Assembly (NCBI RefSeq): GCF_000186865.1
Contig: NW_008705565.1
Span: forward strand, 714,440-778,439
Length of the DNA stretch: 64,000 nt
Direction: 5' to 3'
Source of the DNA: Aureococcus anophagefferens
Lineage: Eukaryota > Sar > Pelagophyceae > Pelagomonadales > Pelagomonadaceae
In this document: positions 50,762 through 56,152 of the stretch, piece after piece
Layout: every line of letters starts with the position of its first letter
How positions within the stretch are numbered: position 1 is the first letter of the stretch
Position numbers and translations under genes: made by a program
The notes under the pieces: generated by a model
What the model was told of the DNA's origin: nothing
The model's database searches: none
Seen by the model: the letters and a program-made list of their open reading frames with translations, nothing else

Positions 50762-52210
50762 ATGAGGATCGTGCCTAGAGTGCCGCGCCTCCGCCGCTTC
50801 GTGCGGCCGCGCGCGACGCCGACGCCACCGACAACACTGCACACACCGGCACCACCGACGCGACCGCGACTCCGCGCGATCGCTGCGCCGCGCCGCGGCC
50901 TCTGGTGCGCGCTGCGGCGCTGGCTGGCGCCGCGGCTCATGGCGCTGCTCGTCTTCGTCGGCCCCGTGCCGCTGCTGCCCGGCGGCTGCCCGCCGGCCCT
51001 CGCGGCGCACACGACGTCGCTGTGCATCGACGCGCCCGCGGCCGCCGTCGACGCGCGCGCGCCGCCGTGGGCGCCGCTCCGGTCGAAGCCGCGGACCGAC
51101 GAGCGCCGCGACGCGGACGCCGCGGCCCCGCGGCGCACGTCCTTCGTCGCCAACGCGGCGGCGCTCGTCGGGCCCGCCGTCGTGCGCGTCGACGTCGAGC
51201 GCGGCGAGGGGCGGCCCGAGTACTCGCACGCGTCGGGCTTCGTCTACGACGGGTCGAACTGTCTCGTGCTCACGAACGCGCACGTCGTCCAGGGCGCGAC
51301 GCGCGTCGCCGTCGTGACGGCCGAGGGCGACCGCAAGGACGCCACCGTGCTGGGCGTCGACGCGCACACGGACCTCGCGGTCCTCAAGGTCGCGGACGCG
51401 AGGAACCTTCCGGAGGCCGAGCTCGGCGACGACGTCGCGCTGCGCGTGGGCGACTGGGTCGTCGCCATCGGCCACCCCATCGGCCTCGACCACACCGTGA
51501 CGCTGGGCATCGTGTCGTCCAAGGGCCGGTCCATCGCGTCGCCGGTCATGAGCCGGCGCGACGACGAGTCCGGCGCGCGGCGCTGGGCGGACCGCGTGCG
51601 CTTCATCCAGACGGACGCGGCGATCAACCCGGGCAACTCCGGCGGCCCGCTCCTCGACGACGCGGGCAGGGTCATCGGCATCAACACGGCCACGGCCATG
51701 CACGCCGACGGCATCGGCTTCGCGATCCCCGTGACCGTCGCGAAGCGCGTCGCGGCCGACCTCGCGGCGGGCAAACGCGCGCGCCACGCCTACCTCGGCG
51801 TGGAGCTGAGCCCGCTGACGCCGGAGACGCGGCGCCTCGTGCGCGACGAGGCGGGCGACGCCGTGAAATTGCCGGACCGCGGCGCGCTCGTCATGCGCGT
51901 CGTCCCCGGGTCGCCCGCGGCGGCGGCGGGCCTCCGGCGCCACGACGTGCTCGTCACCGTCGCCGGGGCGCCCGTCCGCGACGTCGCGACGGTGCTCGTC
52001 GCCGTCGAGGAGGCGAACGTCGGCGACTCGCTGTCCCTGGGCCTCCGCCGCGGCGGCGGCCGGGAGCAAAACGTCGCGGTGACGACCGCGAACCTCGACG
52101 ACTTCTCCGACCCCCTCGACGCGCCGCCCCCGGCGAAGAAGCCCATCCCGGCCGCGGGGCGCGACGGCGTCGGGCGACTCGGCGTCGGCGCGCGGCGAAG
52201 CTTTTCGTAA
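50762..52210 (+). CDS. HtrA/Deg-family serine protease with PDZ domain
   Basis: 482 residues. A basic Pro/Arg-rich leader (1-55), a hydrophobic stretch (about 58-82) ending PPALAA and a likely cleavage site precede the trypsin-like domain. The triad is His174 (TNAHVV), Asp204 (HTDLAVLK) and Ser293 (NPGNSGGPL). A single PDZ domain follows (about 350-440, with PGSPAAAAGL and DVLVTV). Deg proteases degrade damaged proteins, for instance in the thylakoid lumen. A two-part presequence with an ALA-type cleavage site would suit that, but the first part is not a clear ER signal peptide, so compartment is uncertain. Confidence 0.88.
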   Translation: MRIVPRVPRLRRFVRPRATPTPPTTLHTPAPPTRPRLRAIAAPRRGLWCALRRWLAPRLMALLVFVGPVPLLPGGCPPALAAHTTSLCIDAPAAAVDARAPPWAPLRSKPRTDERRDADAAAPRRTSFVANAAALVGPAVVRVDVERGEGRPEYSHASGFVYDGSNCLVLTNAHVVQGATRVAVVTAEGDRKDATVLGVDAHTDLAVLKVADARNLPEAELGDDVALRVGDWVVAIGHPIGLDHTVTLGIVSSKGRSIASPVMSRRDDESGARRWADRVRFIQTDAAINPGNSGGPLLDDAGRVIGINTATAMHADGIGFAIPVTVAKRVAADLAAGKRARHAYLGVELSPLTPETRRLVRDEAGDAVKLPDRGALVMRVVPGSPAAAAGLRRHDVLVTVAGAPVRDVATVLVAVEEANVGDSLSLGLRRGGGREQNVAVTTANLDDFSDPLDAPPPAKKPIPAAGRDGVGRLGVGARRSFS

Positions 52211-52373: not shown

Positions 52374-55300
52374 ATGGCTTCGTCGCTGTTCCTTCTCCTC
52401 GGCGCGCTCGGCGCGCGCACGGCGCGTTCGCAGGAGATCTTCTGGAACTTCCGCGGGGCCTTCGCGCCGTCGTCGGATGTGCGCTGCCCCCAGAACCAGT
52501 ACCAGACCGTCAAGCACGAGCGCGGCCAGGACAACGAGTTCAAGGTCTACGCGACGCCGGACAGCTGCCAGGAGCTCTTCACGGCGCCCGCCGGGCGCGC
52601 CACCCGCGCGGGGAACGGGGGCGATCCCGGGCGCGGCCGCGTCGTTCCGTCGCCGCGACGCCCGCGCCGGTCCCGCAGGTACTACTCGCCGGCGGGCGCG
52701 GCCTACGCCGACGACCTGCGCGACGCCGACGACTTCTTCAAGACCGTGTGGTACAACGGGACCCAGTCCAAGTGCTCGACGATGCAGGGCTTCGCGCCGA
52801 ACATCTACTTTTACGCGTGCGAGTGCAACTTCGGCTTCCTCTGCCTCCCGAACACGGCGCTGCCCGCCTTCTGCCCCGAGGGCTTCTACTGCACCTACCC
52901 CTGGGACTACGACGAGTGCCAGGAGGGCGCGTCCGCCGGCGTCCTTTTCCTCCCGGCGGAACCCCCCGGAAACGCGAACGCCGCCGCAGGCCACTACTGC
53001 AAGGAGGGGAGCGTCTACGGGACGCCCTGCACGGCCATGGAGGCGTGCCCCAAGGGCTCGCCCGTGCCCATGGTGTCGAGCTCGGGCCCGACGCTCTTCC
53101 TCGCCTTCGTGGGCATGTTCTTCATCATCTTCAAGATCCAGGAGCGGCAGATCGAGATGAAGATGTCCAAGGAGAACCAGGAGATGGAGGACTACCTCGC
53201 GGCCTGCAAGACCGCCGAGGACAACAAGATGCCCGAGGAGCCCGAGGCCATCCTCATCGAGTACGTCGACGCGGCCGGCGTCGGCGGCTGGGGCCGCCTC
53301 GCGGCCGGCGACGGCTCCGGCGGCGAGACCAAGGACGAGGCCGGCGGCGGCGGCATCGAGATGCGCCAGGAGACGCCGCCGTCCGTCGCGCCCAAGGAGG
53401 TCGAGCTCGACACGGCGCCGCCGCCCGAGGGCGCCGACCACGTCATGGAGTTCGTCGTCGAGTTCGAGACGCTCACGCGCGTCGCGCCGCGCCCGAAACC
53501 GCCGCGCCCCGAAACCGCCCCCTCTCTCCCGGAAACTCTTCGCCCGACCGGTCCCCGCGCCCTAGGTTCACGCTGCCCAACGGCGTGCAGATCATGCGGG
53601 GCGTGTCCGGGCGCTTCGACCCGTGCACGAGCACGGCGATCATGGGCGCGTCGGGCGCGGGCAAGACGACGCTCATGAACCTCGTCGTGGGCAAGGTCAA
53701 GAAGACCAAGGGCACGATCCGCGTCAACGGCGAGGTCGTCGAGAGCCTCCAGCGCTGGAAGAGCCGCCTGGGCTTCGTGCCCCAGGAGGACATCATGCAC
53801 CGGCGGCTCACGGTGCTCCAGAACATCGCGTTCTCCGCGTCGCTGCGGCTGCCGACGACCATGTCCGAGGAGGACAAGGCGTTGCGCGTGCGCGACGCGC
53901 TGAAGGTGCTGCGCCTCGACCAGGTGCGCCACAGCATCATCGGCGACGAGATGCAGCGCGGCGTGTCCGGCGGCCAGCGGAAGCGCGTGAACGTCGCGAT
54001 CGAGATCGTCGCGGACCCGTCCGTGCTCTTCCTCGACGAGCCCACGTCCGGGCTGGACAGCGTGTCGTCGACGGAGCTCGCGCGCATGCTCGGGGACATC
54101 GCGCGGCGGAAGCGGCTGACCATCGCGGCCGTGGTCCACTCGCCGAGCCCCGCGGCGTTCGCGGCGTTCACGGATCTCATCCTGCTCCAGACGGGGGGCA
54201 CGCCGGTCTACGTGGGCAAGCTGCCGGGCTGCGAGCCCTACCTGGCGTCCATCGGCTTCACGTACCCGCGGGGCGAGAAGAACGGCGAGCCCTTCGCGGA
54301 CTACATGATGGGCGTCGTCGCGGGCATCGACCCGCGTGGATGCCAAACCTTGACTTCAATGTGAGCGTATGCGACGGTTTCGACGCGAGGCGTTCCGCCA
54401 CGCTTCGAGAACTCGACGAGAGCAATCGATTCGTCCAAACATCAGCCGAATCGACGTCGATGTGACCGAGCTAGAGAGTGCTGAAGGTTGGCGGGGACCC
54501 CCCGAACCAGCGGTTGGAATCCACGCAGGCATCTACAAGCCGGACCACTACAACGACCTCGAGAACTGGGACCGCATCACGGCCTTCGGGGACCTGTGGA
54601 AGGCCCACTTGGAGGGCGAGCGGCCGGACCTCCAGGGCGTCAAGGAGGGCAAGACGAAGGCGCGGCGGACGTCGGCGATCATCCGGAAGACGCGGAAGAC
54701 GGCCGCGGAGGAGCAGGCGCTCCAGCGGAAGCGGTCGACGTGCTTCCTGATGAAGTGCCTCTACCGCATCACGGACACCATCGGGCTGATCCTGACGGAC
54801 CTCTACGAGAAGCCCGAGGCCGTCATGTCGCAGTGCAAGATCCGCGACGAGGACCCGCAGCGGCCCCAGGCGGGCTTCGTGCTGCAGTTCCGCCTGTGCT
54901 TCGTGCGCGCCATGCGCCAGTCCTACGGCTCCTTCCGGTCCTTCGTCATGGGCTGCGTGCTGACGAACCTGGGCATCGGCCTCATGCTCGGCGCTGTGTG
55001 GATTCCAACCACTGGTTTGGGGGGTCCCCACCAAACTTCAGAACTCTCTATCTCGGTCACATCGAAGTCGATTCGGCTGATTTTTGGACGAATCGATTGC
55101 TCTTGTCGAGCTCTCGAAGCACGGCGAAAGAGTCTGGTCCAAACCGTTCGATTACGCGCACATTGAAGTCGGGTTGAAGATTTGAATTCCACACAGGCTC
55201 GGCGTGCTCATGGACATGGGCGACTACCTGAACGTGCTCGGGTCCTACCCCGAGGACATCTGCTGGCGCCAGTACCCGCTGTTGATCTACGCGTGCCTGG

Positions 55301-55986
55301 GCCTCCAGGCGAATTCGTACGTCGCCGCGCTGAACTTCATCGCGTTCATCGTCATCGGCGCCGGGGCCGCGGTCGCGACGAACACGTTCGGCGCGGAGAA
55401 GGTGATTTATTGGCGCGAGTCGTCGACGGGGCTGAATTCCGTGGCCTACTTCGCGGCCAAGGTCGTCGCGGACGTGCCCAAGGCTCTGGCGTCGACGCTC
55501 TGCATGCTCGCGGGCCTGCTCTACTCGTTCGTGTCGCCGATGAACACGGGCGAGCTCATCACGGCGACGGTCATCCTCTACCTCAACTCCTACGCCGCGG
55601 GCTACCTCCTGAGCTTCCTGCTCCCCTACGAGGCCTGCGGCATGGCCGCCGTCGGCTGGGGCATCTGCTGGGGCCTCATGTTCGGGGGCCTGAGCCTGAC
55701 GATGCGCGAGGACCTCGCGGGCTTCAAGAACAACCTCATGCTCATCTCGAGCGCGCGCTGGTACAACGAGGCCGTCTGGTACTCGTCGACCATGTACCCC
55801 TTCAGCGAGGTGCGCGACGGGCCCTCCAAGGGCAAGCCCTACTACAACCTCGACGCCGCGAACCACGCGCTCTGCTTCTACAAGACGCTCTGGGAGGCCT
55901 GCGGCTGCGCCTTCGCCTGCCTCCTCTGGTGGCTCGCCATCGACCTCTTCCTCATCGTCTTCACGAAGCTCGACAAGAAGAAGTAG
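52374..55986 (+). CDS. ABCG-type half transporter, four exons
   Basis: Exons 52374-53461, 53566-54335, 54529-54997 and 55197-55986 join in frame to 1038 residues. A signal peptide and Cys-rich ectodomain (CPEGFYC, GHYCKEG, CPKGSP) lead to one TM, then the ATPase: Walker A GASGAGKTT, signature VSGGQRKR and Walker B VLFLDEPTSGLDS. The ABC2-type membrane domain follows with about six spans. This layout matches plant ABCG24/28-like half transporters. Introns of 104, 193 and 199 nt are required: exon 1 to 2 gives VVEFTLPNGVQI. The second and third introns are mobile elements. An 84-nt Arg-rich stretch at 52595-52678 may be a GC-AG intron. Confidence 0.85.
54332..54528 (+). mobile_element. Introner element A in ABCG intron 2
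   Basis: 197-bp insert between GCATCGAC (54324-54331) and GCATCTAC (54529-54536), an 8-bp target duplication with one mismatch. Ends are inverted repeats: CCGCGTGGATGCC at the left and the complement of GGAATCCACGCAG at the right. The intron donor GT (54336) and acceptor CAG both lie in the element. Its sequence matches element B in reverse complement over nearly its whole length. Confidence 0.85.
54994..55196 (-). mobile_element. Introner element B in ABCG intron 3 (opposite orientation)
   Basis: 203-bp insert between perfect 8-bp duplications GCTCGGCG at 54986-54993 and 55197-55204. Left end CTGTGTGGATTCCAA, right end TTGAATTCCACACAG, forming inverted repeats. The donor GT is at 54998 and the acceptor CAG at 55194-55196. 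The reverse complement aligns with element A, sharing for instance AGAGCAATCGATTCGTCCAA and a GGGGACCCCC block. Confidence 0.9.
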
Positions 55987-56152
55987 GCGCGGCGTCTCCC
56001 CGCGCTCCGCCGCGTAACACGAGCGCAGAATCGGACGCCGTGGGAAGCTACTGCGCACTCCTTACCAGGAGTGGGCGCGATGAAGTCGCCGCCGCGGGCC
56101 GCCTTGTGGCGGCGCGCGGGACCGGGGCCGCCTGTTTTTTCGCGCGGACGGG

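Follow-up and report, generated by a model that had tools for sequence, protein, structure and literature searches.

The DNA analysed here is a stretch of 64 kb (the window), and at about 53.0–56.0 kb it contains a gene whose joined protein product is an ABCG-type transporter (Pfam ABC_tran, E 5e-28; ABC2_membrane_7, E 4e-16). The gene is broken by two copies of one element, which occupy its introns 2 and 3. An earlier note on this DNA described these two inserts as an inverted pair of mobile elements, and the observation is confirmed: the copies are reverse complements of each other over nearly their whole length (86.5% identity over 178 aligned columns, with an ungapped inverted repeat of 136 nt at 90%), their four ends form inverted repeats that read CCGCGTGGA, CTGCGTGGA, CTGTGTGGA and CTGTGTGGA, and both are flanked by 8 bp target duplications, one with a single mismatch (GCATCGAC/GCATCTAC, copy 1) and one perfect (GCTCGGCG/GCTCGGCG, copy 2). 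A BLAST search of the window reveals no others. We consider it highly probable that the two introns are insertions of a short non-autonomous DNA transposon, an introner, that borrows its 5’ splice site (GC or GT, here written GY) from the target duplication, brings its own CAG 3’ splice site, and is removed exactly. The features are as follows; P0001 is an environmental orthologue of the ABCG protein, 99% identical, to which we return below.

53477–53565, plus strand: intron 1 of the ABCG gene, 89 nt, without an introner; GC-AG, placed by homology.
53566–54323, plus strand: ABCG coding exon (ATPase domain), running to the putative co-opted donor; Pfam ABC_tran PF00005, E 7e-29 for 53567–54331; the joined translation is open.
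54324–54331, plus strand: upstream target duplicate GCATCGAC, inside the intron; its initial GC is the predicted 5’ splice site, and P0001 lacks its translation.
54332–54528, minus strand: introner copy 1, 197 bp, B-to-A in gene sense, with ends CCGCGTGGA...TCCACGCAG; its final AG is the predicted 3’ splice site.
54529–54536, plus strand: downstream target duplicate GCATCTAC, exonic; the version encoded by P0001 (GIYK).
54529–54985, plus strand: ABCG coding exon between the two introners; the joined gene is 582/585 identical to P0001, gapless.
54986–54993, plus strand: upstream target duplicate GCTCGGCG; its GC is the predicted 5’ splice site.
54994–55196, plus strand: introner copy 2, 203 bp, A-to-B, with ends CTGTGTGGA...TCCACACAG; its final AG is the predicted 3’ splice site.
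55197–55204, plus strand: downstream target duplicate GCTCGGCG, exonic.
55197–55990, plus strand: last ABCG coding exon (membrane part), stop codon included; open to the stop and matching P0001 to its end.

Intron 2 is thus predicted to span 54324–54528 (205 nt) and intron 3 54986–55196 (211 nt), both GC-AG; these sequence-based boundaries replace those of the earlier note, 54336–54528 and 54998–55196. Neither 205 nor 211 is a multiple of three, so retention of either intron would shift the reading frame. Joining 54323 to 54529 and 54985 to 55197 yields the protein that matches P0001 (22 member sequences, two contigs, the longest of 2737 bases) without a gap, whereas a model that leaves four additional residues at each site requires two gaps and eight residues in all. 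P0001 has the tyrosine specified by the downstream duplicate at the first site, so that the intronic copy is probably where the mismatch between the duplicates arose. Joining 53476 to 53566, with intron 1 removed, gives EFVVEFETLTFTLPNGV, colinear with the Pelagophyceae homologue P0002. Intron 1 is likewise GC-AG by homology yet contains no introner, and GC donors may be frequent in the host genome. The best matches to named proteins include those of the pelagophytes Chrysophaeum taylorii (53%) and Aureococcus anophagefferens (59%, covering 43% of the query), so that the host is probably a pelagophyte, though perhaps not A. anophagefferens itself. An open frame 5’ of the ABCG gene (approximately 51002–52200) looks by eye like a trypsin-type (DegP/HtrA-like) serine protease.

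The element is abundant outside the window. A genome search with it gives at least 41 matches (1727 first-look candidates, with the best 40 scored), and a single 20-base element end, allowing up to two mismatches, matches at 144 forward and 113 reverse positions (257 in total), compared with 0 and 0 for a reversed-pattern control. Because the element forms one family in the genome, the pair in the window is not a chance resemblance. From 113 fetched BLAST matches we delimited 99 copies by their inverted-repeat ends and duplication and dropped the 14 that could not be delimited; the duplication is a perfect 8 bp in 75, matches at 7/8 positions in 14 and at 6/8 in ten, and 64 of the 99 copies are exactly 203 bp long. 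The ten copies with 6/8 duplications were set aside, leaving 89 for analysis. Near-identical introns at unrelated sites, as expected of introners, are therefore present: the nearest-neighbour identity among sampled copies has a median of 0.95 and a minimum of 0.85, and among the other 88 copies the closest relatives of window copies 1 and 2 are 90% and 97% identical, respectively. The earlier note’s proposal of a mobile introner-type element with many copies is borne out by these numbers (89 copies with at least 7/8 of an 8 bp duplication), which also supply the genome-wide copy count that it had suggested as a check. Seven viral contigs have one 17-base match, none extending past 20 bases, which we discount as chance, and a second 20-base pattern has no match among viral contigs.

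Gene strand was assigned at each copy with a codon model applied to up to 240 bp of each flank with both duplicates excluded, so that the assignment is blind to the duplication. By thresholds of our own choosing, 71 of the 89 copies have strong coding flanks on both sides, and the other 18 are reported apart; of randomly chosen positions, 1684/3000 in the window and 1292/3000 in 20 loci also pass this flank test. The strand is chosen jointly for both flanks, and hence only the agreement of the frames counts as a test. After removal of the element and one duplicate the flank frames agree in 71/71 strong copies, and in a variant with strand and frame of the flanks picked independently (one training exon was misframed) they agree in 72/73, with upstream duplicates starting GC in 37, GT in 35 and otherwise in one. 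The element occurs both ways relative to genes, as the earlier note had it, with 41 of the 71 strong copies A-to-B and 30 B-to-A. From the frame agreement, the splice-site rules described below and P0001, we infer that the copies are removed by splicing. The strong coding context of 71 of the 89 sampled copies would also be expected if copies spread as RNA and were reverse-spliced into genes, but 8 bp duplications, inverted-repeat ends and both gene-relative orientations are signatures of DNA transposition, and we give reverse splicing next to no credence.

The donor dinucleotide follows a strict rule. Read in gene sense, the upstream duplicate begins with GC in 36, GT in 34 and CT in one of the 71 strong copies, and the lone exception (L021) is a register ambiguity, with GCTCGCGCA present in both flanks; the other 18 copies, whose coding flanks are weaker, divide into nine GC and nine GT. 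With L021 left out, the upstream duplicate opens with GY in 70/70 copies, compared with a frequency of 0.208 in phase-matched flanks (p=1.7e-48). Little else distinguishes these donors: the information at positions +3 to +8 exceeds flank composition by no more than 0.06 bits (95% limit of the null, 0.09), and exon position -1 contains 0.15 bits, which exceeds the 95% limit and is under the 99.9% limit of 0.18. GT is over-used relative to its availability (34/70, despite GC accounting for 78.5% of the GC plus GT in flanks), and intron phase is consistent with the availability of GY (p=0.23). The evidence is for a donor formed by the first two bases of the upstream target duplicate, GC or GT, rather than one located in the element.

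The alternative, that the element holds both splice sites, is that of the earlier note, and Gozashti et al. 2022 give it for a different family in Aureococcus sp. (Fig. 2F, PMC9860276). The donor would be the GT at element positions 5–6, and each insertion would add 12 nt (8 of duplication and 4 of element), or four amino acids. A GT is present at these positions in 67/71 copies, where the shared inverted repeat dictates it, and because 12 is divisible by three the frame test does not discriminate between the two models. With a donor within the element, GY is not expected where the duplicate begins, yet it is there in 70/70 copies; three of the 71 copies (L035, L044 and L051) lack GT anywhere in positions 3–6, where an element-borne donor would sit (L058, with six extra bases before its repeat, is uninformative as to donor location); and P0001 lacks the four residues at both sites. 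The GY count and the three copies lacking GT lead us to discard a donor inside the element, and the two-site model is very improbable. Where the earlier note assigned both donor and acceptor to the element’s own ends, the acceptor is retained (CAG in 70/70) and the donor is moved to the duplicate. If the donor is indeed borrowed, gene callers that accept only GT would misplace it 12 nt downstream and introduce spurious insertions of four residues.

The acceptor, by the evidence of the element ends, is the CAG read out by the inverted repeat. The downstream end is CAG in 70/70 copies, while the mirror position at the upstream end, which is under the same transposition constraint without the constraint of splicing, is T in just 47/70 (Fisher p=2.7e-8 against the downstream end). 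The upstream end reads CTG in 46 of the 71 copies, which could therefore serve in both directions, and is not CTG in 24; the 71st is the misregistered L021. Among the A-ends of the 99 delimited introners 68 begin CTGTGT and 13 CAGTGT, and since CAG in place of CTG leaves no acceptor at that end, the placement of such copies is informative. In the strong set the A-end is upstream in 10/10 copies with a CAG A-end, and the CAG end, whether A or B, is likewise upstream in another four copies (L108, L109, L110 and L126); L107 is uncalled. We also considered whether an RNA hairpin of the two ends assists splicing. A stem does form, though its fold is unremarkable (z -1.1); end positions 10–13 match within a copy at 0.78 compared with 0.62 when shuffled (0/5000), but compensation is absent at position 4 (p=0.57). 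The matching of the ends is explained equally well by common subfamily ancestry or by binding of the transposase, and we set the hairpin aside.

The genome also contains a sister family of 313–336 bp (~331 bp) with CAG...CTG ends, represented by ten matches of which nine are essentially full length. Seven of the nine have CAGTG at both ends, so that neither end can act as an acceptor, and none of the nine has coding flanks on both sides, compared with 71/89 introners (p=3e-6; two sisters were scored with an upstream flank of ~80 bp). The duplication is usable in seven of nine sisters, perfect in six and 7/8 in one. These copies provide a small control for the possibility that GY at the duplicate start is a target preference of the transposase rather than a consequence of splicing. 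A preference would agree with the fit of 88 of the 89 introner duplications to GY in at least one direction (the 89th, L021, fits in another register), and with a fit in at least one copy in five of the seven usable sister duplications. However, two of the seven non-splicing sister duplications have GY in neither direction, compared with one of 89 introners (L021; p=0.013), or three of nine when L124 and L127 are added (p=0.002); the numbers are small, and the assignment of L112 depends on which copy of the duplication is read. The stronger argument for splicing as the source of GY is that it is directional: in gene sense the upstream duplicate has GY as its first two bases in 70/70 copies and the mirrored purine-C as its last two in only 20/71, although the elements lie both ways relative to the gene. 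We regard target preference, too, as very improbable. One divergent, non-splicing sister member, L127 (G000:C3:1813400-1813900), is a 332 bp element, CAGTGTCGAAACC...CGACACTG, with the perfect duplication CGCGGACG; its alignment to the introner A-end, of 62 columns at 71% (E 0.003, from a very small search), hints weakly that homology to the introner extends past the ends.

A candidate parent transposon emerges from the same type of end. The CAG-type end pattern is present at 43 places, two of which, on contig C11, point towards each other across 1197 bp. They bound a 1197 bp element (L124, 243–1439) with CAGTG ends and a perfect 8 bp duplication GTGTGAAA, and it has a 36 bp end and a 44 bp inner block in common with the 331 bp family (92–93% identity). 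Its minus strand encodes 53 residues that are 92% identical to the environmental protein P0121, whose relatives P0123–P0125 (51% identical) contain the motifs DESTDVS - SDGAS - HCIAHRHALAC. The inverted-repeat ends of hAT elements have the consensus CAGNG. The elements are flanked by 8 bp duplications and have inverted repeats of 10–25 bp (PMC3942097). P0121 and P0123–P0125 all match the Pfam family DUF4371 (4/4), which takes in hAT transposon transposases (PMC3985635). The duplications of the introners (75/99 perfect and 14 at 7/8), of the sisters (six perfect and one at 7/8, of nine) and of L124 have this length. A hAT-type parent is likely on this sequence evidence.

A transposase resembling that of P elements, which make 8 bp duplications too, is an alternative mover. 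The genome contains one interrupted P-element-like copy (C25:178372–178818), which adjoins a run of N (L120), and two uninterrupted, subtelomeric 563-residue frames, L122 (G000:C2:3449163-3449561) and L123 (C11:1394141-1394539), that are 29% identical to the P-element-like transposase piece; these two copies are 99.9% identical over 3.4 kb and each is about 5 kb or less from a contig end. In approximately 3.4 kb around each we find no introner-like end pair with an 8 bp duplication (part of L120/L121 is N), whereas the hAT-like piece does sit between introner-like ends, and we consider P-like mobilisation unlikely. A Mutator-like element (MULE) transposase, sought with the model PF10551, has no match in the genome; three control genomes were positive for it.

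Longer copies were sought behind the introner ends as well. At 37 places an end is followed by unusual bases, and inspection of ~700 bp at each yielded no long autonomous copy; the partner end escaped automatic detection in seven of these, five of which are introners by eye (L041 and L060 are not), and two of the 37 (L055 and L056) belong to the 331 bp family. L060 was rejected as a long autonomous copy when extension to 6.6 kb (L066) at 50% GC revealed no partner end. The L066 segment (G000:C7:195000-201600) is otherwise of note for its composition (~50% GC, compared with ~70% for the window) and its several long open frames; in Pelagomonas calceolata one 52%-GC region per contig is a suggested centromere site (PMC9481584).

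We propose the following mechanism. Insertion would duplicate 8 bp of the target, and the first two bases of the upstream duplicate (GC or GT) would serve as the 5’ splice site. At the downstream end the inverted repeat CTGTGTG... would read ...CACACAG on the RNA and provide the 3’ splice site, and the duplicate together with the element (8+203=211 nt or 8+197=205 nt) would be excised exactly, restoring the coding sequence. Since CAG is read outwards from both ends of most copies, these should be usable whichever way they lie; a copy in which one end is CAGTG would have no acceptor there, and in our sample that end is always upstream. Mobilisation would be by a hAT-type transposase, to which the 8 bp duplications, the CAGTG-type sister ends and the hAT-like fragment in the 1.2 kb element point. 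As to origin, intron-making may have arisen in a hAT-type miniature inverted-repeat transposable element (MITE) by one base change, CAG...CTG to CTG...CAG: with CTG instead of CAG at an introner end the outgoing recognition end becomes a splice acceptor, and a donor would then require nothing beyond a bare GC or GT that precedes the element by precisely 8 nt. We find this quite possible, though we stop just short of calling it likely. On the same reading the genome would preserve the series, from acceptor-less sisters through one-way copies with a single acceptor to two-way copies.

The element, the duplications, the GY and CAG rules, the frame agreement and the two orientations are read directly from the sequence, and splicing itself is what we infer from them. 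Several observations weigh against parts of this interpretation. P0001 may derive from DNA in which the sites are empty, and it would then not tell the models apart: its members, if DNA, would indicate insertion-free sites in a near relative and not exact splicing. The ten set-aside copies with 6/8 duplications are less clean (GY in 8/10, a CAG end in 6/10), and several of them are probably misdelimited. As regards the parent, the window’s introner and the 331 bp family have just ~13–16 terminal bases in common. The DUF4371 matches of P0121 and P0123–P0125 have E values of 0.0007 to 0.087 and all fall short of Pfam’s cut-off, and the structure prediction of P0123 (A3) is unusable (mean predicted local distance difference test score, pLDDT, 32.5); a search of PDB sequences with the A3 profile returned one irrelevant match (E 0.22). 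The hAT models PF05699 and PF14372 have no match in the genome, nor did they in control genomes. No intact hAT gene was found between such ends at the 25 of 43 CAG-type places examined (16 ends of the 331 bp family, the L124 pair, L107–L110 and L125–L127), and longer copies may sit among the other 18. Finally, a P-element-like gene is present in the same genome.

Introners rank among the foremost explanations of bursts of intron gain, and the transposons that mobilise them are often unclear. This genome supplies a candidate parent lineage, a built-in negative control in the splice-incapable sisters, and graded intermediates. The co-opted donors, 36 GC to 34 GT, bear on a published puzzle, the high proportion of GC-AG introns in A. 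anophagefferens (39.6%; PMC3033335), and if this introner did originate from a hAT-type MITE as outlined above, the spliceosome of the alga would recognise donors nearly devoid of other sequence signal.

In its mechanism the family resembles introners described earlier in related algae. Huff, Zilberman and Roy (2016, Nature 538:533) reportedly found that introners of Micromonas and Aureococcus co-opt one splice site from the target duplication. That mechanism is summarised in PMC12403724, and the A. anophagefferens introners and the family in the window are alike in being short non-autonomous inverted-repeat DNA transposons with one site carried and the other taken from the duplication (here, on sequence, GY in 70/70 and CAG in 70/70). 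A. anophagefferens introners occur in both orientations (PMC10228655), as do those described here, and introns of ~210 bp are characteristic of them (PMC9481584), which fits the 211 nt of our family. Family 4 of Aureococcus sp. (TARA_AOS_82_MAG_00129), for which Gozashti et al. 2022 propose both sites in the element and an addition of 12 bp, with an example spanning 77 bp (PMC9860276), has in common with ours the 8 bp duplication and an element-borne 3’ site, but its two-site model does not fit our family on the grounds of the GY rule, the three of 71 copies and P0001. Amoebophrya introners have inverted repeats at the intron ends and direct repeats across the boundaries (PMC7789003); unlike ours, their direct repeats are 3–5 nt and many of their boundaries are non-canonical, and a family-specific inverted repeat was not detected in them. 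Gozashti et al. 2022 looked for mobilising elements of introners (PMC9860276), and our literature search, for which most subscription papers were outside the scope, found ‘introner’ and ‘hAT superfamily’ together in no paper, which says little. The hAT superfamily and its MITEs have 8 bp duplications, short inverted repeats and internally deleted copies (PMC3942097). The introner and its sisters are alike in these respects, and the sister family has CAG-type ends; the introner differs in that most of its ends are CTG and not CAG, and no intact transposase gene accompanies it in the places searched. The borrowing of a donor is thus already known from related algae, and what is added beyond Huff et al. 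is the assignment, from 70 copies, of which end gives which site, together with a non-splicing sister family and, in the hAT-like piece, a candidate parent transposon.

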